Below, one piece after another: positions 5,247 through 33,215 of a stretch of 64,000 nucleotides of DNA. This DNA comes from Bradymonas sediminis. Its GTDB lineage: Bacteria; Myxococcota_A; Bradymonadia; Bradymonadales; Bradymonadaceae. The stretch spans positions 1,278,001-1,342,000 of the forward strand of contig NZ_CP030032.1 in assembly GCF_003258315.1 (NCBI RefSeq), given 5' to 3'. Numbering within the stretch: the first letter of the stretch is position 1; each line of letters opens with the position of its first letter. Both the position numbers and the translations under genes were made by a program. The notes under the pieces were generated by a model. The model searched no databases and had not been told where the DNA came from. It worked only from the letters and a program-made list of their open reading frames with translations.

Positions 5247-7139
5247 ATGGCATTGGATGACGAGCCAACGATCGTGACGCGGGCGATGAGCGATGAGGTA
5301 TTCGAGGCACTGATCGAGCACCTTCCTGACGCCGTCGTCTTCGCGGACCTGGAGCGCCGGATGGAGTTCGTCAGCAAGGGGTTTGTCGAGATGTTTGGGT
5401 ACGAGCCCGAGGAGGTCATCGGTGAGAATACCCGCATGCTCTACGCCAATCCGTCGGACTTCAGCGCGCAGGGGAGCCAGCGATTTAACCCCAAGGCTGA
5501 CGTGGTCGCCGGGGCGTATATCGTCGAATATCGTCGAAAAGACGGGACGGTCTTCCTCGGTGAGACCCGCGGCGTGCCGGTGCGCGACGCCGATGGTCGC
5601 ACGCTCGGATATATGGGGATTGTCCGCGATGTCACCAAGATGGTGCGCGACGCCGAAGAGCTCCAGATCGTGCGCCACGAGTTGGCCGAGCGGCTGAATC
5701 GCTCTCAATTGCTCTTCGACCTGTCGACCCGCGAGTACCAGGGTGTCGAAGACCTTCTGGAATTTACGCTGGCGAGGGCCGCCAAGATCTTGGGAGAGCA
5801 GACGGCCATCTTTAGCCGCATCGCCGGGCAGCAATACGTCATCGAGGCGTTCGTCTCGCAGACCGGCCAGGCCGTCGAGCGCGGCACGGTATTTGAGCTC
5901 GGGAATACCTATTGCTCCATCATGCTCGACAGCGGCGGCGTCCTGCAGATTTCGCATATGGGCCAATCCGAGCACGCCGGGCACCCGTGCTACGAGAATT
6001 TCGCGCTCGAGTCCTATATCGGCGCGCCGGTCGAGATCGGCGGCAAAGTAGTCGGGACGCTCAATTTTACATCCAGCACGCCGCGCGTCGTCCGCCACCC
6101 GAAGGTCGATGAGGAGTTCGTCACCATGCTGGCAGGTTGGCTCGGGGTCTTCTTTGACCGCGCCCAAACCCAGCAGCGCCTCGCCCGGCAAAACCAGAAC
6201 CTCGACGCGATGGTCGAGCTGCAGGACCTGCTGCAGCGCGCCGAGCTCACCCAATTGGAGTCGGTGCGCGCGTTCGGCGAGTTCCTCTTTGAGCAGGTCG
6301 ATATCCTGGGCCTGGCGGTCGCGGTTTTCGACGGCGGGCGGCTGCGCGTGGTCGACGCGCAGGGCTCGCTCGACGCGCTGTCCGGCAACGAGCTGCCCGA
6401 GCAAATCGTCCCCGAGACGCCCGGCGAATTCGAGCGCCCGTCCCTGCAACGCTGGCAGACCTCGCGCAGCGCGATGCCAGGCGCCAGCATGACCCTTTGC
6501 GCCAACCTATCCTACGCCGGCCAGAGCGTCGGCGCGCTGGTGGTCGACGTCCGGGGCCAGGACGCCTTCGACCGCCGCGACCGCCCCATCACCGAGCTCA
6601 GCGCTGGCCTGCTCGCCGCCCGCCTGTCGGTCGTCCGACAATACGAGCGCGCCCAACACGAAGCGACCACCGACTCACTCACCGGCCTGTCGAACCGACG
6701 CGAGTCCATCCGGCGCATCGAGCACGCCCGGCGCAACGCCCCGGGCGCCCCGATCGAGCTGGCCATCCTCGACGTCGATGAATTCAAGAAGGTCAACGAC
6801 ACCCACGGCCACCTGGTCGGCGACGCGGTCCTTCGCACCCTCGCCGACACCCTGCAGGCCCACTTCCCCGAGGCCATCGCCACCGGCCGGCTCGGCGGCG
6901 AAGAGTTTATCGTCGCGTCCCACACACACGGAGAAGCGCGACTCGCCGACGCGCTGCGCGAGATGCTCCAGGCGTTCGGCGCGCACAAATTTAGCGCCGA
7001 CGGCGAGACCTTCTTGGTCACGTTCAGCGCCGGCGCGGCGCAGCTTGGGGAGAGTGAGGATATCTACGCGGCGATTGAGCGGGCGGATGCGGGGCTTTAT
7101 GAGGCGAAGCGGGGTGGGCGGGCGCGGGTGGTTGGGTAG
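5247..7139 (+). CDS. PAS-GAF-GGDEF diguanylate cyclase
   Basis: 630 aa. Domains in order: PAS (about 20-135, with VVFADLERRMEFVSKGFVEM), a linker helix, GAF (about 155-305), a second GAF-like or degenerate sensory region (320-440), and GGDEF (470-629). The active-site loop is GGEEF (G550-F554), with substrate-contact residues in DVDEFKKVNDTHGH, so c-di-GMP synthesis is expected. The RxxD inhibitory site usually found just before the loop is absent (FPEAIATGRL there), predicting no product inhibition. No membrane segment is seen, so it is a cytoplasmic sensor; GGAAG-type purines precede ATG 5247. Its last ~145 codons recur as a truncated copy at 24003-24430, and its last ~30 as a remnant at 8551-8640. 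Confidence 0.93.
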   Translation: MALDDEPTIVTRAMSDEVFEALIEHLPDAVVFADLERRMEFVSKGFVEMFGYEPEEVIGENTRMLYANPSDFSAQGSQRFNPKADVVAGAYIVEYRRKDGTVFLGETRGVPVRDADGRTLGYMGIVRDVTKMVRDAEELQIVRHELAERLNRSQLLFDLSTREYQGVEDLLEFTLARAAKILGEQTAIFSRIAGQQYVIEAFVSQTGQAVERGTVFELGNTYCSIMLDSGGVLQISHMGQSEHAGHPCYENFALESYIGAPVEIGGKVVGTLNFTSSTPRVVRHPKVDEEFVTMLAGWLGVFFDRAQTQQRLARQNQNLDAMVELQDLLQRAELTQLESVRAFGEFLFEQVDILGLAVAVFDGGRLRVVDAQGSLDALSGNELPEQIVPETPGEFERPSLQRWQTSRSAMPGASMTLCANLSYAGQSVGALVVDVRGQDAFDRRDRPITELSAGLLAARLSVVRQYERAQHEATTDSLTGLSNRRESIRRIEHARRNAPGAPIELAILDVDEFKKVNDTHGHLVGDAVLRTLADTLQAHFPEAIATGRLGGEEFIVASHTHGEARLADALREMLQAFGAHKFSADGETFLVTFSAGAAQLGESEDIYAAIERADAGLYEAKRGGRARVVG

Positions 7140-8261: not shown

Positions 8262-8402
8262 GTCTGCGATAGGCCGCGCCGAGGGTTCGGGCGCGGTGCG
8301 GGTATTCATCGAATGTGTGAATTTGGGGTGAAGGGCCGTTGCAAGGGGTCTGGCAATGCCTGCAGTGGGGGTCGACCCTGATTGCAGGCATTGCTTTGAT
8401 GG
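8250..8402 (+). repeat. R2 repeat, copy a (38-nt palindrome family)
   Basis: Contains the R2 landmarks CGCTGTTTTAT, CTGCGATAG.CCGC and CCGAGGGTTC, then the palindrome at 8355-8392. In the best copies the palindrome is AATGCCTGCAGTGGGGGTC joined to GACCCCCATTGCAGGCATT: 19-bp arms with a single G.T pair. The right arm is slightly decayed here (CCCTGAT). The other copies are at 12085-12195, 25546-25800, 28050-28345 and 32978-33215. Confidence 0.8.
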
Positions 8403-8500: not shown

Positions 8501-8550
8501 AAGGGGCGCGGGCGGCTCGCCCGCTTTTGGTGTAGGCCTGCTCCTCCCCA

Positions 8551-8640
8551 AGCTGGGCGAGAGCGAAGACATCTATGCGGCCGACGATCGGGCGGATGCG
8601 GGGCTTTATGATGCGAAGCGGAGTGGGAGTGCGCGGGGGG
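8551..8640 (+). pseudogene. Remnant of the GGDEF-protein 3' end
   Basis: About 30 codons (LGESEDIYAADDRADAGLY, then DAKRSG) match the last residues of the 630-aa GGDEF protein (LGESEDIYAAIERADAGLYE...). No start or upstream domain remains. A run of ten G (8635-8644) disrupts the end. This is the left-hand border of the AT-richer defence island, mirroring the larger GGDEF fragment at its right end. Confidence 0.85.
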
Positions 8641-8819
8641 GGGGCGTTGGATTGGGGTAGGGGTAGGGTTCGGGCGATTCAATTGGGTAGTGTGTCGGAA
8701 GGAATTTCGAGACTAGGGGGTGAGCTGATGGCGGCGACGCGTTGAGCACTAGCGGAGCAATATTGGCTATACACTCTTTGGCCAAGGGGGTGGGTTATAT
8801 GAGTCTTGTTATTGCTTGA

Positions 8820-9190
8820 TGTCATTTTTAGTGTGAAAAGATGTTCGGATGTTCCGGAGCGTATCAAGTTGCTATCGAGATAGTAGCAAGATTTGCTTGT
8901 CTTTCATGAGTAATCTACTCGTCCCGGGATATTTCGCATGCGGTAAAAATGTGCTAATATGGTTGAGCCGCCAGAATAGTCTGGTGGGATGTGCATACAA
9001 TGTGTTTGTCAAGTTCTTTATTAATTTGATAAGCGACATCAGGATGCTCCATATTGAGTATAACCAATACGTTAATCGGGCACTCTCTTTTTGAGGGTGG
9101 AGTGGGTTCGTTTTGTCGGGCCTGGCCGTGCGCCTAGAGAGTTATGGGATGTCGATAATCCCTCTCTGTGGCTTTGGTATGATTTGGGGG
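8820..9190 (+). ncRNA. Candidate structured non-coding RNA upstream of the reverse transcriptase
   Basis: About 500 bp of AT-rich DNA without a convincing gene precede the RT start. Visible hairpins: TTGCTA..TAGCAA (8869-8889); CCGCCAGA-ATAG-TCTGGTGG (8968-8987, one G.T); and a compound hairpin at 9135-9167, AGAGAG/TCTCT enclosing GGGAT/ATCCC, ending 27 nt before the RT ATG. Retrons and DRT2-type systems encode their template RNA directly upstream of the RT. Placement and structure fit that; the boundaries and the RNA itself are inferred. An 82-codon open frame at 8849-9094 has no ribosome-binding site and an unconvincing composition. Confidence 0.35.
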
Positions 9191-9194
9191 GGGA

Positions 9195-10490
9195 ATGATT
9201 GATTTGGGAAATTGGCAATATGAATCTCGGAGTTATTGTCATTTCGATATTTCTCCTTCAAAAAAGCGCGTTAAGGAAGTACTCGCCACGCCAAACGCAA
9301 TAACTCGACATTCATTTTGGCCATTTATCCATTTTATTTTGGAGGTTCCTCGTTACCGACCCGAAGAGGGCCGGATGGATATGAAGGAACGGCCAATTTG
9401 TTATGCAGCGCATCTCGATGCTGCGATATATTCGTTTTACAGCTTTCAACTTTCTCAGCGATATGAGTCTAGGATAGCGGAGTTTTCCGATTCAGTGTTG
9501 GCATATAGAAGTCTCGGTAAATCCAATATCCATTTCGCAAAAGATGCCTTCGACGACATTAGAAACAGGGGCGAGTGTGTTGCGTTGGCCTTCGATGTGA
9601 GTGGCTTCTTTGATAACTTGGATCACCGTTATCTTAAAGAAAGGTGGTGTGAGGTAATTGGCGGAATCGAACTGCCCGAACCTGAGTATAAGGTTTTTCG
9701 CAGTGTAACGCGCTATTCTCAAGTCAATCGTGATGAAGTGTACGAGCAGTTCGGGCTGAACTCGCAAACATCGCCAAAGAAACATCGCATTTGCACGTCA
9801 CAACAATTTCGAACTCGAGTTCGGGATAAGGGGCTGATTACCGTAAATGACCACGCCAATGGCATTCCTCAGGGCTCACCGATTAGTGCCACCTTATCGA
9901 ACGTCTATATGCTGGAGTTTGATCGAAAGATGCACCAGCTCGTTAATACGCTTGGTGGGTCATATCGCCGCTATTCGGATGACATCTTATGGATTGGTCG
10001 TGTTGATGATGCGGAAGAAGTCGAGAAGAGAATTCGAGAGCTCGCAATATCGGCTCATCTTGAGTTAAAGGAGGATAAAACTGACCGAGTACAGTTTGTT
10101 CGAGAGGGCGGACGTCTGATTGCTAAAAGTGATGAAGGGCACCGAGACCTCCAGTATCTTGGGTTCACTTTCGATGGCGAAAGAGCCCGTGTGCGATCGA
10201 GTTCTATCTCTCGCTTCTACCGCAAAATGAAGCAGGCTGTTCGCAGTAAGGCAAAGGCGGCCAAAGACTCCGGCGATTTCCGGCTTTTTAAGCGCTCACT
10301 ATATGAGAATTACTCTCATTTAGGGAAACGAAATTTCATTTCCTATGTGTATCGCGCCGCGGAGATTTTTGGGGATGAGAAAATAAAGGCCCAGGTGCGT
10401 AATCATTGGGACGCTTTACAGATAGAGATTGAGGCCGCGGAGAAGTGGTTGGAAAAAGAAGTCAAAAGAACAAATTTGAGTAATATTTGA
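9195..10490 (+). CDS. Defence-type reverse transcriptase (DRT2/UG2-like)
   Basis: 431 aa, with all RT blocks visible: RPICYAAHLDAAIYSFYSFQ (block 1), ALAFDVSGFFDNLDH with the first catalytic Asp (about 134), NGIPQGSPISATLSN (block 4), YSDD at 260-263 (second catalytic pair), LELKEDKT (block 6) and LQYLGFTFDGERARVRSSS (block 7). There is no maturase/X domain or HNH endonuclease, so it is not a group II intron protein. Overall it resembles the single-domain unknown-group RTs used in phage defence, most like DRT2 as I recall that family; the subgroup needs a profile search. A G8 run (9186-9193) forms the ribosome-binding region. The next gene, an ATPase, starts 35 nt after the stop. GC is clearly lower than in chromosomal neighbours, indicating transfer. 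Confidence 0.85.
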   Translation: MIDLGNWQYESRSYCHFDISPSKKRVKEVLATPNAITRHSFWPFIHFILEVPRYRPEEGRMDMKERPICYAAHLDAAIYSFYSFQLSQRYESRIAEFSDSVLAYRSLGKSNIHFAKDAFDDIRNRGECVALAFDVSGFFDNLDHRYLKERWCEVIGGIELPEPEYKVFRSVTRYSQVNRDEVYEQFGLNSQTSPKKHRICTSQQFRTRVRDKGLITVNDHANGIPQGSPISATLSNVYMLEFDRKMHQLVNTLGGSYRRYSDDILWIGRVDDAEEVEKRIRELAISAHLELKEDKTDRVQFVREGGRLIAKSDEGHRDLQYLGFTFDGERARVRSSSISRFYRKMKQAVRSKAKAAKDSGDFRLFKRSLYENYSHLGKRNFISYVYRAAEIFGDEKIKAQVRNHWDALQIEIEAAEKWLEKEVKRTNLSNI

Positions 10491-10525: not shown

Positions 10526-12049
10526 GTGGTATTAACGCACGCGAATATTGGAGATGTAGTCGCTGAAGGTGATAAAGACCTTCATAGATACTTTGTAGAT
10601 ACCGCTCCGGCTTTCGATGCAGCCGTCGATCTCACTGATAAACGGTGCTTTTTGGTTGGTCGGACGGGATCCGGGAAAAGTGCGATAATTCGTGAAATCC
10701 AAAAGAGATACGGTAGTAATAGCCGTTATCTATGCGTGTCGATTCATCCAGAAAAGACATATCTCGACAATATTGTTCGTAGTACCGCCTTTAAGGAGGC
10801 ATCCGCAGACGGGAACTTATCCCAGATTATCTTCAAGTTGGTTTGGCACTATGCCATTATGACTCGGGTCTTGCTTGCGAAGTACGGGCCTGATGGTCCA
10901 AAGCGAGGTTGGCAACCAATTTTTGGCGATGATCTACGAGCATATAAATTTTTAAAGCGGGCCAATCAGCTTTCAGCTGAAGGTCGTACCTTCAGCGATA
11001 TCGTGGTCGAGTTTATTCGGGAGATCAAAGTCGGTGTAGGGAAGGTTTCGGCGAGTTTTGGGCTTACCGCGCCGAAAGACAGCTCTTTGCAGGAGATTCA
11101 GAAGCTTCTAAAAGAAACAGAGAGTTTTTTTGAGAAAGGGTTTTGGAATGTGTTGAAGGGACAGAAACTTTATTTGTTGTTCGATGATCTCGACCAAGGC
11201 TGGGACCCAGACAGCGATGCACAGCAGCAACTGGTTAGAGCACTTTTCAGTGTTGTTGCTGAGTATAATCACCGTGAGCGTGTAAAGCCGGTTATTGCCT
11301 TACGAGCTGATATTTTGGCAGGGTTAAAGTTACCACAGCGGGAAAAGTTCTTTGGATATATGCAATATGTTCGATGGACTACGCCACTACTGAGCGAAAT
11401 GCTCGCTCTTAGGATTGAAAATTACTACAATATTCCTGCTGACAAGGTACATAAGCATTTCTTTCGAGGAGACGTGTCTGGAACGCCACTTCTTGACTTT
11501 CTCGTCCAAAATACTCTTCGTCGCCCGCGAGATCTGCTTATGTATGCCCAAGCCGCAATACAAGAGGCGGTGGAACAGGGCGACGATTATGTGTTTGCCA
11601 GGCATATTAAAACTGCTCGCCACAGGTATTCCAAAGGACGCGTTTACGCGCTTCATGACGAGTGGGGATACCTCTATTCGAATTTAGAGACTTTTCTCAT
11701 GTGGCTTGCCGAAGAGGTCTCCACAGAGAAACTAAAAAAACCGTTGAATCCTCGGGAGTTGAGAGACGCATTGGGTGCCGTCAGAGATAGGACCATTTTG
11801 TCTGATGATGCGGGCGCTCCCCTTTGGGTAGTATCTTATTTCCCAGAGGGGTCCAAAGACCCCAAAGAGCTTGTTTCGATCTTGTATAAAGTAGGTGTTC
11901 TTGCAGTAAATGAAGATGGCCAAATATATACAGAGGACCTTGAGCCAGAATTGCCCAAGATTACTAGCAACACTGTCTTCGAGTTTCATCCGATGATTGT
12001 TCCCTTTATGGAGGAGTATCATGGCGGAGATGACACCATTTGGGATTGA
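10526..12049 (+). CDS. P-loop ATPase (Sll1717/KAP-like) paired with the RT
   Basis: 507 aa. The N-terminal NTPase has Walker A GRTGSGKS (45-52), Walker B LYLLFDDLDQGWD (about 215-227) and a sensor-like strand VIALRADIL, followed by an Arg-rich helical lid (LRRPRDLLMYAQAA). Residues 360-507 look like a helical/winged effector-sensor region (YLYSNLETFLMWLAEEVS ... ILYKVGVLAV). The pattern is that of the Sll1717-type P-loop ATPases, related to KAP/STAND proteins common in defence loci. It is soluble, with no membrane segment. It follows the RT on the same strand after 35 nt with the same low GC, so the two are probably one operon. The likely role is sensing or effector action triggered by RT product or phage; this is inference. 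I see no separate nuclease domain. Confidence 0.8.
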   Translation: MVLTHANIGDVVAEGDKDLHRYFVDTAPAFDAAVDLTDKRCFLVGRTGSGKSAIIREIQKRYGSNSRYLCVSIHPEKTYLDNIVRSTAFKEASADGNLSQIIFKLVWHYAIMTRVLLAKYGPDGPKRGWQPIFGDDLRAYKFLKRANQLSAEGRTFSDIVVEFIREIKVGVGKVSASFGLTAPKDSSLQEIQKLLKETESFFEKGFWNVLKGQKLYLLFDDLDQGWDPDSDAQQQLVRALFSVVAEYNHRERVKPVIALRADILAGLKLPQREKFFGYMQYVRWTTPLLSEMLALRIENYYNIPADKVHKHFFRGDVSGTPLLDFLVQNTLRRPRDLLMYAQAAIQEAVEQGDDYVFARHIKTARHRYSKGRVYALHDEWGYLYSNLETFLMWLAEEVSTEKLKKPLNPRELRDALGAVRDRTILSDDAGAPLWVVSYFPEGSKDPKELVSILYKVGVLAVNEDGQIYTEDLEPELPKITSNTVFEFHPMIVPFMEEYHGGDDTIWD

Positions 12050-12084: not shown

Positions 12085-12195
12085 AGAGGTTGCGCGGGCG
12101 TTCTGTGAATGCAGGTTTTTGGGGGCGGCTCTACGGGGCTTGGCAATGCCTGCAGTGAGGGGCGATATTTATTGTAGGCATTGTTGTAATGAAAG
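12085..12195 (+). repeat. R2 repeat, copy b (degenerate)
   Basis: A decayed copy of the R2 family: GGGCGTTCTGTGAATGCAGG, then the palindrome region 12145-12182 (AATGCCTGCAGTGAGGGGC ... TTGTAGGCATT). It separates the RT/ATPase operon from the restriction operon, so the RT/ATPase module lies between R2 copies a and b. Confidence 0.7.
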
Positions 12196-19831: not shown

Positions 19832-20608
19832 ATGCTGAAGCGTGAGTTGCTTGATGATATGTACTGCCAGGGGGTCTCTTTTATCATTACTGATAAGGGC
19901 AAACTGGCTCGAACGATCGCGCTGATACTTGTTCAAGAATATACCGTGGCAAGGGATATTATAACCGGCAGTGTGTGCAAAAATAGCGTTGCAGAAATGC
20001 CCATCGATATGGATGAAATCGAAGACATTATTACCCGCCGACTGAAGCCACCGGACGTTTTCCACCGGGATGGTTTTCTCTTCCAACTGATAATGTGGTT
20101 GGCGGCACATCTTGATCTTGATGATGGTGACTTGGTTGCATTGCCACATACACAAGCTTCAGCAAAAGGTCAGGACTCGCTTATTATTCACCGCGCGGAT
20201 GAGGCTGTGATTGCGTTGTCAATTTGCGAAGACAAAGCGACTAAAAATCCACGGAGTGTTGTCCGAGACGATGTTTGGCCAGAAATTAAAGACTATGAGG
20301 CAGGGGGCAGGCGAGATGAACTTCGTTCGAGTATTATCGCTACTCTTGGGTCGAGCGGCATGAAACAGGAAGAAGCGATATCTCTCGTTCGCCGCATCTC
20401 GTGGGAAGGTCGTCGAAGGTATCGGGTGCGCATTACATTAGAAAAAGAACGTCGCAAAGGCCTCTTTAAGGGTTTTGACACACTTGTTCCCGGACTAGTT
20501 GATCGTAGACGCGGTGAGACGGTTCAAATCCCAGAACTGAGGGGGTGGATGACTGATTTCGCTAATAAAGTTGAAAACGAGCTCCGCGAATACGCCCAAG
20601 GGAAATGA
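19832..20608 (+). CDS. HamA-like (DUF1837-type) nuclease of a Hachiman-like system
   Basis: 258 aa. A predicted alpha/beta nuclease core carries the E-x-K signature in LSICEDKATKNPR (E133, K135), with an upstream acidic region (DLDDGDLVALPHT) and a following Asp/Glu helix (VRDDVWPEIKDYEAGGRRDE). The order and size match DUF1837/HamA proteins, the effector nucleases of Hachiman, which degrade DNA when released by their helicase. The next gene is a Ski2-like helicase starting one nucleotide after this stop, exactly the hamA-hamB arrangement. The start codon at 19832 lacks a strong ribosome-binding site, so the N-terminus is uncertain. GC is low, like the helicase and unlike hsdR. AbpA-like or another nuclease of a nuclease-helicase pair remains possible. 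Confidence 0.65.
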   Translation: MLKRELLDDMYCQGVSFIITDKGKLARTIALILVQEYTVARDIITGSVCKNSVAEMPIDMDEIEDIITRRLKPPDVFHRDGFLFQLIMWLAAHLDLDDGDLVALPHTQASAKGQDSLIIHRADEAVIALSICEDKATKNPRSVVRDDVWPEIKDYEAGGRRDELRSSIIATLGSSGMKQEEAISLVRRISWEGRRRYRVRITLEKERRKGLFKGFDTLVPGLVDRRRGETVQIPELRGWMTDFANKVENELREYAQGK

Positions 20609-20609
20609 T

Positions 20610-23600
20610 ATGTTCGATTCTGAGACAGTCCGACTTATCCAAGATGCCGAACCGTTGGAGGGGCTAGATATCGAAAAGCTTCCTCAACTTCTAACCGAGG
20701 CATATGCGAAAGTAGTTGCGGCTCGCTTAGGGGCTGTCGAATTGACTGATGAGCGCCGCGACGCAAAGTGGGCCGAGTCGCTGGAGACACTTCGTCGACT
20801 TGCCGATACCTATGAGGGATTCTCCATCTTTCTTCCTGAGGAGAATCCGCATCGTGAATCCTGTGCGTTTGTGGCCGGTGCTGCTCATCATACACTTAGT
20901 CAAGCTCGGCTGATTGAAGCTCGCGTTGCTGGGCTTGATACAAAAACACCATCACTATCGGCCAATGGTATCGGTTCAGAGGTCGCGGCATGTCTGTTAT
21001 TCCTTCTTGCTGGTCAACAGGCGGACGCTGCTGAAATTGCGAAACTCTTCAATCATCCAAAAAATGGTCGTTATGAGTCGCAAGTATTAAACTATCTTTC
21101 CGCACTCGCATCTGGCGATGGAGGGCAACTTCAATGGATTATAAACGAGAATTCAATCGGCGTTCATGACGATATTGTACCTGATTATCTACAAGGAGCT
21201 GCTGAAGCGTTGTGGGCGAAGATCGCACACAGTCTTCGTTTGATGTCATATATTGTGATGGGGATTGAGAACCGTGAAAGTCCGTTCGACGTGCTTGATT
21301 CTGTTCTTAAAACAATATCTGCCGCACAAAGAAAAGTCCCGATAGAAGACATTAGTCTTGTTGTTCGCCCGAGTTTGGCGGGTCCTTATCATTTCGCTAA
21401 ATTAGTTCGCGAAGTTTTCAATAATTTACTAAATACTGCAGTTATCCGTGTTCCGCCGCCTACCGGTGTTGAGTCGGGGGAGTGGAATAGGTTCCTTCGC
21501 TCTTTCGCATTACGGCGCCCGTTTATTTGGCGGAACCATGCGAACGCATTTTTCAACGGCTTTCTCGAACCTGGTTGTTCGTTTGTTCTGACTTTCCCGA
21601 CGGGCGCTGGCAAAACAACAGTGACCGAGCTTCGGATTGCAGCGGAGCTTATGCGAGGACGTAAGGTTGTATATCTTGCGCCGACGAGAGCCCTCGTTAA
21701 TCAAGTCTCGCAAGAACTTTCAGAGCGTCTCAAACCAATTGCAAAGTCGGTCGTTCGTGGAGGTTTTGGGGAGGATTTCGGAGAAATTACAACTGGCCGT
21801 GTGTTCGTTCAAACGCCTGAGCAATGTCTGGCCTATCTGTCCTTCGATGAGAATGTACATTCAGATTTGGGTTTGGTCGTTGTGGACGAAGCCCATCAAA
21901 TCTCGGGTGAATTGCCCGCGAACGATGGTTCGGAACGGCTACCCGGACGACGGTCGATGGATGCTATGTGGACGCTTCTTTTGCTTCAGCAGCGGTCGTC
22001 CGAGGCCGATATTATTCTGATCTCAGCCATGGTTAGTAACGGATCAAAATTGGCCGATTGGTTAGGCGATACTACTCAACGGCCCGCAAGCGTACTGGAA
22101 GCGCCTTGGAAACCTACGAGACAAGTACGTGGAGTGGTCGCTTATGAGGCTAACGATATTCAACGACTCAATAATATACTTAACGTCAGAAAACAGACCA
22201 CAGGAAAGAAAACACCAGGAAAGGCAGATAAGTCTGGGGTGGAGGCACAGCCGTTGGGGTTATTTTGTCATACACAAGTTTGGGATACGGCTAGTAGTTT
22301 TGCCAAATTCCCGCTCCTTCCAGAAACTGTGCCGCTAGCTGTAAATAGGCACTGGGGTGTTACTGCAAATAGAAATCAGGTTGCTGGGCGCTTGCTTGCT
22401 GCGATGGTGAATGCCGCCATGCGCCCGATCGTCTTTACCCAGCAAATTGGCTACACAAAAAATATTGCCAAAGTCGCTTGTTCGATACACCAGTCTGCGG
22501 GCATCCCAGAAATAGTCGTCACATCCAAAGAAAAATCGCTATTTAACGCCGCAGCACTCGAACTGGGAGGCGCTCAATTCGTCGAAGGCCTGGTTGAAGG
22601 GCGCATCGGAGTTCATCACGGACTGTTGTTGTGGCCGGAACGAATGGCAGTTGAGTCAGCGTTCCGGAGATCAGATGGCTTGGTTGCACTAGTCGCCACG
22701 CCAACAGTTGCACAAGGAATCAACCTCCCGGCTGAGGCAGTTGTGATTGCCGGTGATGATCGATGGACTGATGACATTGAGAGAGGTGGTATGCAGCCGA
22801 TGGCAGTGCATGAACTTCTGAACGCGGCTGGTCGCGCGGGGCGTGCAGGTCATTATGCACATGGCATTGTGATTAATTTGCCTGGAAAGGTCTTAACGAT
22901 CGAGGATAAAAATGCTGGATACGAGATCAATCATTTCAATCATGTCATGTCGTTATTTGGGTTGCCCGACCAATGTCTGGATGTGATTGATCCGATTACT
23001 CAAGTTATTGACCGAATCGAATCGGCTGGACTGGATTCCGACGTGAGCAACTATCTCGTTCGAAGGGCCGCTGGAATTCCTGAAGACCAACTCGTTCGTA
23101 TCTTTAATGCCGCACTGGGCAATGTAACAACGTCTGATCGAGAAGCCCGAGCCATCCATCAGGCAAGGCTTTTGCGAAAATTTGGTGCTGTTCTCGACGA
23201 CGAACAGGAGGACAAAAAAGAACAGAATTATGAACAATGGCGTGAGTTCGCGAGCGAGGTCGGTATTTCGCCAGTTATTTTAGCCGATATAGCTGCGGCA
23301 ATTCCATCCCAAGAGTCTGTCGCCACTTGGAGCTTTAAAAGCTTGCTAGACTTTGTACTGCGAAGAGTCGTGCATCACCTTTTTGCAATGGTGAATCCTG
23401 ATAGCTCTGGGCTTGAACGTATCATCCCTCAGGCACACACTGGTCACGGTTGGCGCAAGAAGTTTACCGAGAGCTATTCTGAGTGGGAGAGTCGGTGGCG
23501 CGCGATCATTCCGAGTGTATTAACCGCTTGGATGGCGGGCAATCCGATTGCAGACATCGGGAACTCACTTCATACTGCTCGCGGTGCGAATAAAAAGGTT

Positions 23601-23942
23601 AATGCTGTTCATCTCGGACGACGTTTTGCGTTACATTCAGCATCGAGCGTCGCCTATGGCGCTTCAGTTGTGATTCGCATATTCGAGAAGGTTCTTGGAG
23701 ATGGTATTCCCTTTGTCTTGAGATCACAGCTACAGTTAGTCTCAGGATGTGTCAGGGAAGGTTTCGACGACCCAGACAAACTATTGTTATTCTGGAGTTT
23801 GCGCCGTTATAACGGCTTGTATCCTCGAGTATTGGTTCACCGTGAGTTTGCAAGCATTCAGTCTAAACTTCCCAATTGGATTGACATGCCCGAGGTGGAG
23901 GAGCGCCGCAGCCATATCCAGAAGGTTTGGTCTGCTAAATGA
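20610..23942 (+). CDS. HamB-like Ski2-type DEAH-box helicase
   Basis: 1110 aa. ATG 20610 follows the hamA-like stop by one base and has AAGGGA upstream. A helical N-terminal region (1-300) precedes an SF2 helicase: motif I FPTGAGKTT (about 330-338), APTRALVNQ, motif II VVVDEAH (about 424), motif III LISAM, motif IV-V VATPTVAQGINLPAE and motif VI NAAGRAGRAGH. The Q/GRAGR and INLPAE forms are typical of Ski2/Hel308-like enzymes. The C-terminal 400 residues are helical. In Hachiman the HamB helicase senses damaged or free DNA and restrains the HamA nuclease. The assignment rests on architecture and gene order. The gene ends about 60 bp before the right-hand direct repeat. Confidence 0.75.
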   Translation: MFDSETVRLIQDAEPLEGLDIEKLPQLLTEAYAKVVAARLGAVELTDERRDAKWAESLETLRRLADTYEGFSIFLPEENPHRESCAFVAGAAHHTLSQARLIEARVAGLDTKTPSLSANGIGSEVAACLLFLLAGQQADAAEIAKLFNHPKNGRYESQVLNYLSALASGDGGQLQWIINENSIGVHDDIVPDYLQGAAEALWAKIAHSLRLMSYIVMGIENRESPFDVLDSVLKTISAAQRKVPIEDISLVVRPSLAGPYHFAKLVREVFNNLLNTAVIRVPPPTGVESGEWNRFLRSFALRRPFIWRNHANAFFNGFLEPGCSFVLTFPTGAGKTTVTELRIAAELMRGRKVVYLAPTRALVNQVSQELSERLKPIAKSVVRGGFGEDFGEITTGRVFVQTPEQCLAYLSFDENVHSDLGLVVVDEAHQISGELPANDGSERLPGRRSMDAMWTLLLLQQRSSEADIILISAMVSNGSKLADWLGDTTQRPASVLEAPWKPTRQVRGVVAYEANDIQRLNNILNVRKQTTGKKTPGKADKSGVEAQPLGLFCHTQVWDTASSFAKFPLLPETVPLAVNRHWGVTANRNQVAGRLLAAMVNAAMRPIVFTQQIGYTKNIAKVACSIHQSAGIPEIVVTSKEKSLFNAAALELGGAQFVEGLVEGRIGVHHGLLLWPERMAVESAFRRSDGLVALVATPTVAQGINLPAEAVVIAGDDRWTDDIERGGMQPMAVHELLNAAGRAGRAGHYAHGIVINLPGKVLTIEDKNAGYEINHFNHVMSLFGLPDQCLDVIDPITQVIDRIESAGLDSDVSNYLVRRAAGIPEDQLVRIFNAALGNVTTSDREARAIHQARLLRKFGAVLDDEQEDKKEQNYEQWREFASEVGISPVILADIAAAIPSQESVATWSFKSLLDFVLRRVVHHLFAMVNPDSSGLERIIPQAHTGHGWRKKFTESYSEWESRWRAIIPSVLTAWMAGNPIADIGNSLHTARGANKKVNAVHLGRRFALHSASSVAYGASVVIRIFEKVLGDGIPFVLRSQLQLVSGCVREGFDDPDKLLLFWSLRRYNGLYPRVLVHREFASIQSKLPNWIDMPEVEERRSHIQKVWSAK

Positions 23943-25557: not shown

Positions 25558-25800
25558 TCTGCGATAGGCCGCGTCGAGGGTTCAGATGCGCTGCGGGCGC
25601 TCTGCGAATGCAAGATGTGGGGGCGAAGGCCCGCTGCACGCGGCCTGAGAATGCCTGCAGTGGGGGGCGACCCCCATTGCAGGCATTGCTTTGATGGCTG
25701 CCGTAGGGGGCGACCCTCGTTGCAGGCGTTGCCGGATAGGGCGCAGTGAGGGTTGGGTGTGATGGCAGTTTTAAACCGTCTTAGGGGGCGCGGCTTTCCT
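25546..25800 (+). repeat. R2 repeat, copy c
   Basis: Landmarks CTGCGATAGGCCGC, CGAGGGTTCAGA and GGCCTGAGAATGCCTGC, the palindrome at 25650-25687, then GCTTTGATGGCTG, CGACCCTCGTTGCAGGCGTT, GCCGGATAGGGCGCAGTGAG and GGTTGGGTGTGATGGCAG. The last ~100 nt, up to the aldo/keto reductase stop, also match the stretch after copy d (28260-28390). The 365-bp gap between genes holds only this repeat. Confidence 0.85.
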
Positions 25801-26699: not shown

Positions 26700-26883
26700 A
26701 AAGACCTCTTCGGGGCTGCTCTTTGGGCATGATGAGTTAAGGGGCGGAGCCTCCGGTAAAAGCTAGTGCGAGTGGGTGGGAGGTCAACCGAGACGGGGTT
26801 CGCATCGCTGGTATTCTAAACGCGCGAGTCGCCTCAAGGTGGCTAATAAATGCTCACCTTGAGGCGGGCTGCGAACCCACTCG

Positions 26884-27051
26884 CCAATCGTACTCACCAC
26901 CCCGCGCCTGAAAGGTCTCAAGGTCAAAGCTGACCTGCGAGAACGCTTTGTGAATACCCACCTCTAAAATCGGGCGGCTATAGGTGTGGGCGCCCATCGT
27001 ATTGTCGAAGAAGCGCCCGGCCCGCTCGCCCATCGCGTAGGAGCCGGTCAT
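26884..27051 (-). pseudogene. Truncated duplicate of the viperin 3' end
   Basis: 56 codons (MTGSYAMGERAGRFFDNTMG ... LETFQARGGEYDW) align gap-free with the last 56 codons of the viperin gene (28445-28612). The downstream flank (GGCTAATAAATGCTCACC, then TTGAGGCGGGCTGC) is also shared with 28388-28441. No start or radical-SAM core remains. Upstream of the break the DNA switches abruptly to repeat R1. Confidence 0.92.
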
Positions 27052-27070
27052 TCCTTCACCCCGGTCACAA

Positions 27071-27357
27071 CCCCCACCCAAGCCACCACCCCCGCCGAAG
27101 GCTTCGTCCGCCAACGCTGGCGCGATTGGCGCCCTGCGCCCACGGCTACCAGTTCGGTTCCGCCCCTGCGGGGCTTGCCGCGCGTGGGCCATGCCCGGGT
27201 GACGCGCGTTGGAGTACGATGTCGTGCGGCCGATTGGGCCCATAACAAGATATCTTCTCGAATCGGCGAACGCGTTGCGGACCACCAGCCCCAACGGGGC
27301 GCGACAGAATCGGTAGCCGGGGTCGTAGCGCTTTTTGCGTAGGCCTCGGCGGCGGTC
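27071..27357 (+). repeat. R1 repeat, copy a (~280 bp)
   Basis: Starts CCCCCACCCAAGCCACCACC and ends GCGTAGGCCTCGGCGGCGGT. It contains two GC hairpins (GCCCC-TGC-GGGGC and GCCCC-AAC-GGGGC), and between them TTGGAGTACGATGTCGTGCG and GATATCTTCTCGAATCGGCG. Copies: 27531-27833 and 32691-32962. Copies a and c are closest. Long open frames on both strands are by-products of high GC. Confidence 0.85.
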
Positions 27358-27530
27358 GATGACATGGCGGCGGTCGATGACTCGACGGCGGTCGATGACA
27401 TGGCGGCGGTCGATGACTCGACGGTCGATGACTCGACGGTCGATAATATGGCGGCGGTCGATGACACGACGGCGGTCGATGACGCGGCGGCGATGGATGA
27501 TACCACGTCGCTCGATGACACCACCCCCAC
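27340..27530 (+). repeat. 18-bp minisatellite (GCGGTCGATGAC core), block 1
   Basis: About ten tandem units of ATGGCGGCGGTCGATGAC and TCGACGGCGGTCGATGAC, some shortened to 15 bp, between R1 copies a and b. Units degenerate towards the right (GCGGCGATGGATGAT). There are no unique spacers, so it is not a CRISPR array. Confidence 0.9.
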
Positions 27531-27833
27531 CCAAGCCACCACCCCCACCCAAGCCACCACCCCCGCCGAAGGCTACGTCCGCCAACGCTGGCGCGATTGG
27601 CGCCCTGCGCCCAGGGCTACCAGTTCTGTCACGCCCCTGCGGGGCTTGCCGCGCGTGGATCGTGCATGGTCGACGAGCTTTGCGTGGCGCAATCGTGTGG
27701 CGCATACGACCCATCACCGAGCGCGTTCTCGAATCGGCGAACGCGTTGCGGACCACCAGCCCCAAAGGGGCGCGACAGAATCGATAGCCGGGGTCGTAGC
27801 GTTTTTTGCGTAGGCCTCGGCGGCGGTCGATGA
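27531..27833 (+). repeat. R1 repeat, copy b
   Basis: Same boundaries as copy a but diverged in the middle (GTGGATCGTGCATGGTCGAC replaces GTGGGCCATGCCCGG). Followed at once by minisatellite block 2. Confidence 0.85.
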
Positions 27834-28049: not shown

Positions 28050-28345
28050 TTGCGGCGCTGTTTCATACCTGCGATAGACCGCACCGAGGGTTCAGACGCG
28101 GCGCGGGCGCTCGGTGAACGCGGTCGCTAGGAGGGAAACCCCGGTACAAGGGGCCTGAGAATGCCTGCAGTGGGGGTCGACCCCCATTGCAGGCATTGCT
28201 TTGATGGGTGCGGCGGGGGTTGACCCTCGTTGCAGACGTTGCCGGATAGGGCGCAGTGAGGGTTGGGTGTGATGGCAGCTTGCCGACGCCTTAGAAGGGC
28301 GCGGCTTCCGTATAGGGACTCAGGTTTTGGGCCGCGCGCTGCGCC
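28050..28345 (+). repeat. R2 repeat, copy d
   Basis: Best-preserved copy with copy e: GCGCTGTTTCATACCTGCGA, GGCGCGGGCGCTCGGTGAAC, CTAGGAGGGAAACCCCGG, then the palindrome 28160-28197. It is followed at 28374-28392 by a short match to the end of the aldo/keto reductase gene (encoding MDGLGG and a stop on the minus strand), then directly by the viperin 3' flank. Confidence 0.88.
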
Positions 28346-28441: not shown

Positions 28442-29374
28442 TCACCAATCGTACTCACCACCCCGCGCCTTAAAGGTCTCAAGGTCAAAGCTGACCTGCG
28501 AGAACGCCTCGCGAATACCCACCTCTAAAATCGGGCGGCTATAGGTGTGCGCGCCCATCGTATTGTCGAAGAAGCGCCCGGCCGGGTCGACCATCGCGTA
28601 GGAGCCGGTCATCGCCTCGTTCGACTCGGAGACGACGACAATGCCGGCGTCCGCCAGGCCTCGGTGACGCGCGACGAACGCATCGAACTCAGCGCGGGTG
28701 ATCTCCAATTCTTCGACATACCCGTCGTTTTGCCCGTCGATGGGCAGCACCTGGAAGAGCTTCCAGCGCTCGGGGGCCATCTGGGCGATGAGTTCGCTCA
28801 TGTCCTCGTCGACGTTGAGCCGATTTACGACGGTGTTCATCTTCAGCCGAATGCCGTGGTGTCGGGCGAGGTCGGCGGTGGCGCGGTACTTGGCTGCGCT
28901 CTGGGTCTTTCCCTTCTGGGCGCGGCCGATGGCCAGGTGTGTGCCGTCATCGGCGCTGTCGATGCTGATGACCAGCCAGTCGAGCTTGCCGCCGAAAGCG
29001 TCGAATGCGGCGGCGTCGAGCCTCGACCCGTTGCTCACCACCATCGTGGTCATGCCGGCGTCTTTGGCCGTCGCCACCAACTCCGCCAACCAGGGGACCA
29101 GCGTGGGCTCGCCGCCGGCGAAGGTGATCTTCTCGAAGCCGGCGGCCGCGATCTGGCGCACGACCTCGAGTTGCTGCGCTTTGGGCAGCATGCCGCGGCC
29201 CAGATATTCGGCGCTGTCCTCGAAGCGGGCGTAGCAGAATTTGCAGCTGTAGTTGCAGGCTTTGTTGAGGTGGTAGTTGATTGATGGGGGCATGGTGGTC
29301 GCTTTCGTGGATGCCTTCTCCAGTGGGGTGATTTGAGCGTCAGAGTTGATCGGTCCGCGTACGTTATTTTTCAT
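28442..29374 (-). CDS. Prokaryotic viperin (antiviral radical SAM enzyme)
   Basis: 310 aa. The radical-SAM cluster motif CX3CX2C lies in SINYHLNKACNYSCKFCY (C40, C44, C47), followed by FAGGEPTL, the SAM-binding GGEP. MNTVVNRLNVDEDM and WKLFQVLPIDGQN match viperin core motifs, and the tail FFDNTMGAHTYSRPILEVG, then FDLETFKARGGEYDW, corresponds to the conserved C-terminus of animal and bacterial viperins. Viperins convert CTP, GTP or UTP to 3'-deoxy-3',4'-didehydro nucleotides that terminate phage transcripts. ATG 29372-29374 has GAGATAGAG upstream; a start at MPPSINYH (29293) would drop a non-conserved 27-residue extension. No nucleotide kinase, a common partner, is adjacent. It is transcribed divergently from the sigma-like gene. 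Confidence 0.9.
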   Translation of the reverse strand: MKNNVRGPINSDAQITPLEKASTKATTMPPSINYHLNKACNYSCKFCYARFEDSAEYLGRGMLPKAQQLEVVRQIAAAGFEKITFAGGEPTLVPWLAELVATAKDAGMTTMVVSNGSRLDAAAFDAFGGKLDWLVISIDSADDGTHLAIGRAQKGKTQSAAKYRATADLARHHGIRLKMNTVVNRLNVDEDMSELIAQMAPERWKLFQVLPIDGQNDGYVEELEITRAEFDAFVARHRGLADAGIVVVSESNEAMTGSYAMVDPAGRFFDNTMGAHTYSRPILEVGIREAFSQVSFDLETFKARGGEYDW

Positions 29375-32977: not shown

Positions 32978-33215
32978 TGACTACCGCGCTGTTTTATACC
33001 TGCGATAGACCGCGCCGAGGGTTCAGACGCGGCGCGGGCGTTCGGGGAACGCGGTTGCTAGGAGGGAAGCCCCGGTGCAAGGGGCCTGAGAATGCCTGCA
33101 GTGGGGGTCGACCCCCATTGCAGGCATTGCTTTGATGGCTGTCGTAGGGGTCGACCCTCGTTGCAGGCGTTGCCGGATAGGGCGCAGCGAGGGTTGGGTG
33201 TGATGGCAGCCTGGC
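32978..33215 (+). repeat. R2 repeat, copy e
   Basis: Palindrome 33091-33128 is in its best form (arms of 19 nt, SalI-like GTCGAC centre, one G.T pair), with the same left and right flanks as copy d. Together with R1 copy c it fills the 765-bp gap between the SEC-C gene and the channel-like gene. Confidence 0.9.

Follow-up and report, generated by a model that had tools for sequence, protein, structure and literature searches.

A probable short-template DRT2 template RNA with a predicted 24-residue Neo repeat in Bradymonas sediminis

Does the leader in front of a reverse transcriptase (RT) gene of Bradymonas sediminis encode the RNA that this enzyme copies, and what would the copies encode? 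The question was raised for positions 8690-9190 of a stretch of 64,000 nt (hereafter the window) by an earlier note, which described the leader as AT-rich, structured and free of credible genes, and as a possible template RNA of DRT2 or retron type. In the K. pneumoniae DRT2 system, the RT is directly preceded by a 280-nt RNA, in which a 5' handle comes first, then a template of 120 nt, and then a 3' scaffold comprising a tower, a buttress and a pseudoknot (PMC12039810, PMC11100668). This template is copied over and over by the RT, which seems to jump from one ACA motif to another. Adjoining repeats bring together a -35 box and a -10 box, 17 bp apart, and after these come a ribosome site, a start and the stop-less frame neo (PMC12039810, PMC11100668). 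In 42 of 42 close orthologues the template length was divisible by three; most had 117 nt, and lengths of 111 and 129 nt occurred as well (PMC12039810). In more divergent DRT2 clades models of the RNAs could be built, but annotating Neo proved more difficult (PMC11100668).

The RT gene (9195-10490, plus strand) encodes a protein of 431 aa with a YSDD active site. It scored 519.4 bits against the NCBIfam Drt2 model NF041746, for which the cut-off is 390, and was recovered by the PADLOC Drt2 model at E 2e-156 (519.8 bits). Two model libraries, independent of each other, identify it as a genuine Drt2. It also aligned end to end with the RT of known structure from K. pneumoniae DRT2 (PDB 9c0i), at E 3.6e-97 over residues 9-409. 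Given the family assignment and this match, a template RNA is expected directly before the RT. A second Drt2 match was not found in the 5.05-Mb genome that carries it. The closest RTs found were proteins of two Calothrix plasmids (L041 and L042) at 45% identity, and a tree of 27 Drt2 RTs placed the B. sediminis enzyme alone on a long branch, without a well-supported sister. RT homologues above 46% identity were found neither in the class (57 genomes) nor in the phylum (379), nor in samples around a Pandoraea, a Rhodobiaceae and a Bacteroidota genome, nor among the plasmids, phages, viral contigs and genome contigs searched. The window used as a query gave no match in E. coli genomes either. 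A run of eight G at 9186-9193 abuts the RT start codon; it could be a ribosome site and slippage-prone.

The leader has a GC content of 46%, compared to 59% for the window and approximately 65% for the DNA just upstream, and in this sense it is AT-rich. The RT and ATPase genes that follow are as AT-rich as the leader (44-49% GC), so the low GC marks the whole cassette and not the leader alone. The view that the stretch holds no credible gene was borne out, as its sole plus-strand ORF of at least 60 aa (8849-9094, 81 aa) had no NCBIfam match. All three hairpins that had been listed, at 8869-8889, 8968-8987 and 9135-9167, are present. The latter two folded better than all 200 shuffles (z -3.8 and -3.1, respectively), whilst the first, with z -1.4, was matched by 17 of 200 shuffles and is not above chance; it also sits upstream of the RNA described below and of its likely promoter.

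Comparison of upstream sequences placed a DRT2-type ncRNA at 8962-9180 on the plus strand, approximately 220 nt long with approximate, inferred ends. It lies before the RT as proposed, within a narrower interval than 8690-9190, and shows the order handle, template, tower seen in relatives ahead of a Drt2 RT. None of 200 shuffles folded as well as 8955-9180 (z -3.5). A promoter was predicted at 8932-8960 on the same strand, with a -35 box TTTCGC (8932-8937), a 17-nt spacer and an extended -10 box TG-C-TAATAT (8955-8960); it was missed by the consensus scan and is therefore graded weak. A terminator of the ncRNA was looked for and none was found. The 5' handle (8968-8987) has 8 bp, a loop ATAG and the arms CCGCCAGA and TCTGGTGG, and occupies the place of the handles in the DRT2 loci L064, L056, L041 and L042. 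It is joined to the template by a 7-nt link, GATGTGC (8988-8994), which reads GTGATGT in L064. Further downstream, a predicted hairpin at 9081-9099 takes the place of the DRT2 buttress, and a tower-like hairpin (9132-9172, z -3.1) ends 22 bases ahead of the RT start. A candidate pseudoknot was noted between AUCGG (9075-9079) and UCGAU (9152-9156) in the tower loop. All 5 bp are possible, but the pairing scored no better than swapped partners, and the candidate is thus considered unproven.

The template was searched for in the 450 nt before the RT. The scan took direct repeats spaced by a multiple of 3 between 54 and 190 nt, a circularly open frame, and a sigma-70 promoter arising only when two reverse-complement units join. 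Exactly one answer was returned: the direct repeat ATAC (AUAC in RNA) at 8995-8998 and 9067-9070, with a lag of 72 nt and the junction promoter TTGACA-16-TATACT. The predicted template is therefore 8995-9066 (plus strand), beginning 7 nt past the handle as in relatives. On the minus strand, the -35 box TTGACA lies at 9007-9012 and the -10 box TATACT at 9057-9062, coming to 16 nt from each other once units are joined. The Shine-Dalgarno motif GGAG of the predicted neo was found at 9047-9050 and its start ATG at 9037-9039, 7 nt after the motif. The unit of 72 nt is divisible by 3 and stop-free over the junction, with two frames open. The same scan on enterobacterial-type DRT2 loci returned 111, 117 and 120 nt, mostly with ACA repeats, in agreement with PMC12039810. 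ACA itself is not repeated at the template ends in the window. Template ends at ACA were tried and rejected: the sole ACA pair between handle and tower is 39 nt apart and leaves the promoter boxes unjoined.

How often such a combination arises by chance was evaluated with a strict scan (repeat of at least 4 nt, promoter of at least 11 of 12). Together with the open frame this level was reached in 8 of 1000 and 30 of 4000 shuffles and in 0 of 556 stretches elsewhere in the window; the thresholds were picked with the window's own values in view, and these first figures are therefore optimistic. Adding a Shine-Dalgarno and an ATG or GTG in the open frame after the -10 box, a feature described in the literature, reduced the count to 0 of 4000 shuffles, and all features together were present in 0 of 1754 stretches of other genomic DNA. 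Reading joined cDNA repeats for a stop-free segment had been suggested as a check; one segment was stop-free, and it also gained the junction promoter and the ribosome site.

The neo frame runs across the repeat junctions without a stop and gives the 24-aa unit MSLIKLIKNLTNTLYWLYSIWSIL, which is hydrophobic (GRAVY 0.82) and basic. Of the two open frames, only this one has GGAG seven bases before ATG. The second, MEHPDVAYQINKELDKHIVLVILN, was rejected as the Neo frame, as it has no Shine-Dalgarno and start and is unlike other Neo repeats; it could also be expressed. The MSLIKLIKNLTNTLYWLYSIWSIL repeat aligned round the whole circle with the 39-residue Neo repeats predicted from enterobacterial-type DRT2, as IKNLTNTLYWLYSIWSILMSLIKL (window) against IDNLLETLYNVISLMETIMSIVHL, with a single 15-residue gap. 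Fifteen codons are 45 nt, exactly the shortfall of 72 against 117. The summed Neo score over five related sequences, which are close relatives and worth about one comparison, was reached by 1 of 3000 shuffles, all being stop-free units in which promoter boxes, Shine-Dalgarno, start and jump repeat were fixed. No significant match was obtained with the Neo repeats of L056, L044, L032, L061, L062 and Calothrix; for the two Calothrix repeats the shuffle test gave p 0.17 and 0.98. We consider it likely that the locus represents a compact-repeat DRT2 lineage, whose 24-aa Neo is the enterobacterial-type Neo minus one 15-residue block.

The leader thus appears to be a DRT2 template RNA, a short-template variant with a repeat unit of 72 nt, and the cassette is very probably a DRT2 abortive-infection system with the template 8995-9066, an AUAC jump and a Neo of 24-aa repeats. 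The proposal that the leader encodes the RT template RNA is supported by the Drt2 identity and by the stop-free unit with its junction promoter. Transcription, RT binding, template jumping, phage triggering and toxicity are taken here by analogy with the K. pneumoniae system. The RNA of approximately 220 nt would bind the RT via its 5' handle and 3' tower. The RT would copy the 72-nt template until the nascent cDNA ends in GTAT, from the first AUAC; this end would melt off and re-pair with the second AUAC just 3' of the template, whereupon copying would restart. Such jumping would produce tandem 72-nt cDNA repeats, which when double-stranded would carry the sigma-70 promoter TTGACA-16-TATACT at each junction, followed by GGAG-7-ATG and the endless frame. 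The cell would then make (MSLIKLIKNLTNTLYWLYSIWSIL)n, a hydrophobic basic Neo protein expected to arrest the infected cell.

Compared to K. pneumoniae DRT2, the locus has the same RT family and RT length without extra domains, an RNA directly upstream, the order handle, template, tower, TTGACA and TATAAT-like boxes joined at the repeat junction, a Shine-Dalgarno with ATG, and a stop-free unit whose length is a multiple of 3. It differs in template length (72 against 120 nt), jump repeat (AUAC against ACA), promoter spacer (16 against 17) and Neo unit (24 against 40 aa). The template falls outside the range of 111-129 nt published for the 42 close orthologues, a range which is a property of that set and not a definition of the family (PMC12039810). 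The scaffold sequence differs too. A covariance model of the full 3' scaffold, built from 12 relatives, recognised its own members and found neither the window nor Calothrix. A tower-only model was made from 13 sequences, with the window outside the training set, and its helix covaried well (covariation score 0.53 against 0.22 in shuffles). Within 8690-9200 its best match was 9132-9178 at E 0.02; over 64 kb the window tower ranked ninth (E 2.6), a weak match.

Short templates were also seen in relatives. The two Calothrix loci share with the window the order of elements, a short template and a basic frame. Both units are 75 nt, and between the two loci the templates are 59% identical, the handles 86% and the towers 92%; this variable template with kept handle and tower is the published conservation pattern. 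Unlike in the window, the jump repeats there are TTACTTAT and ATTCA, the tower is longer and approximately 190 nt from the RT, and the junction promoters score 9-10 of 12, so that both loci fail the strict scan. A viral-contig locus from IMG/VR, L062, has an RT at 41% identity, the order handle, template, tower and a short stop-free unit of 87 nt with GGAG-5-GTG; its jump repeat is GT only, and its template ends were inferred by eye. Among the short-template loci only the window passes the strict scan. Short templates are probably present in at least two distant lineages. On two other viral contigs, L070 and L071, candidate Drt2 templates of 150 and 147 nt with perfect junction promoters were observed, which exceed the published length range.

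Several other explanations were weighed. The leader could be a DRT2 template RNA with other ends and another length, in which case the 72-nt unit and the 24-aa Neo would be wrong. The ends were indeed set by a 4-nt repeat, the scaffold is weakly homologous to those of well-studied members, and the published pipeline struggled to annotate Neo in divergent clades (PMC11100668). Against this stand the single match of the scan, the complete set of features that none of the shuffles or control stretches reproduced, a peptide that fits enterobacterial-type Neo apart from one in-frame gap, and Calothrix relatives in the same short length class, and we regard other ends as unlikely. It is less probable still, and in our judgement very unlikely, that the RNA belongs to the class 2 UG ncRNAs and that its cDNA functions as DNA, as it does in DRT9 or DRT10, with frame and promoter as by-products. 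Related RT families do make non-coding repetitive cDNA (PMC12483538, PMC12632851), but the RT scored 519 bits with Drt2 against 84 with UG17 (the DRT10 RT group) and 82 with Drt9, and the junction promoter, Shine-Dalgarno, start and Neo likeness would all have to be coincidence. An ordinary 5' leader with chance hairpins and coincidental template features would be an extremely improbable outcome: AT-rich DNA readily yields hairpins and promoter-like hexamers, and the hairpin 8869-8889 is not above chance, but the other two hairpins, the fold of 8955-9180 and the chance tests of template features and Neo argue otherwise, and tested members of this RT family need such an RNA. Of the two RNA types put forward in the earlier note, DRT2 was supported and the retron was not; a structured RNA upstream of an RT would also suit a retron msr-msd RNA, but the best retron RT model gave 49.6 bits against 519.8 for Drt2 and Rfam had no match anywhere in the 64-kb window at gathering scores, leaving this reading a negligible chance.

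The short-template DRT2 reading stands on four things observed here: the family of the RT, the sequence features, how rarely these arise by chance, and the likeness of the peptide to predicted enterobacterial-type Neo. A genome as it is read contains no Neo gene, and published annotation of such genes has been difficult beyond the close relatives of K. pneumoniae DRT2; here one can be made out in a distant lineage. If the reading is true, the Neo unit would be modular, with functional units of approximately 60% of the usual size, and Calothrix (75 nt) and L062 (87 nt) would share the short class. The window would then hold a natural minimal Neo, its 24-aa unit against units of 39 or 40 aa pointing to a dispensable part of the repeat. 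As the jump repeats differ (ACA, AUAC, TTACTTAT), base identity at the template ends, and not ACA, is predicted to guide rolling-circle reverse transcription.

The RT is followed after 35 nt by a gene for a Sll1717-family P-loop ATPase (10526-12049, 205 bits), possibly co-transcribed with it. It was considered as a DRT2 partner and rejected: it adjoins no other fetched Drt2 locus and was thus treated as a neighbour outside the system. The ATPase also gave a sub-threshold match to the anti-phage family model DS41_1. The cassette of RT and ATPase belongs to a defence island that also comprises a Hachiman-like DEAD-box helicase (20571-23942, HamB models), a prokaryotic viperin (28442-29374) and a type I restriction system; in a separate ORF at 26854-27765, the match to viperin models is confined to their 60 C-terminal residues. 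On either side of the cassette stands a copy of a 69-nt hairpin repeat, at 8333-8401 and at 12123-12191, which may mark insertion points. The REP-like repeat was also found between defence cassettes at about 25628-25696, 28141-28206 and 33072-33137, so that 5 of its about 8 places in the genome fall in the window. Finally, inspection by eye showed that the 3' end of the upstream GGDEF-like gene (about 7045-7135; the gene ends at 7139) recurs in degraded form at about 8540-8640, ahead of the DRT2 cassette.
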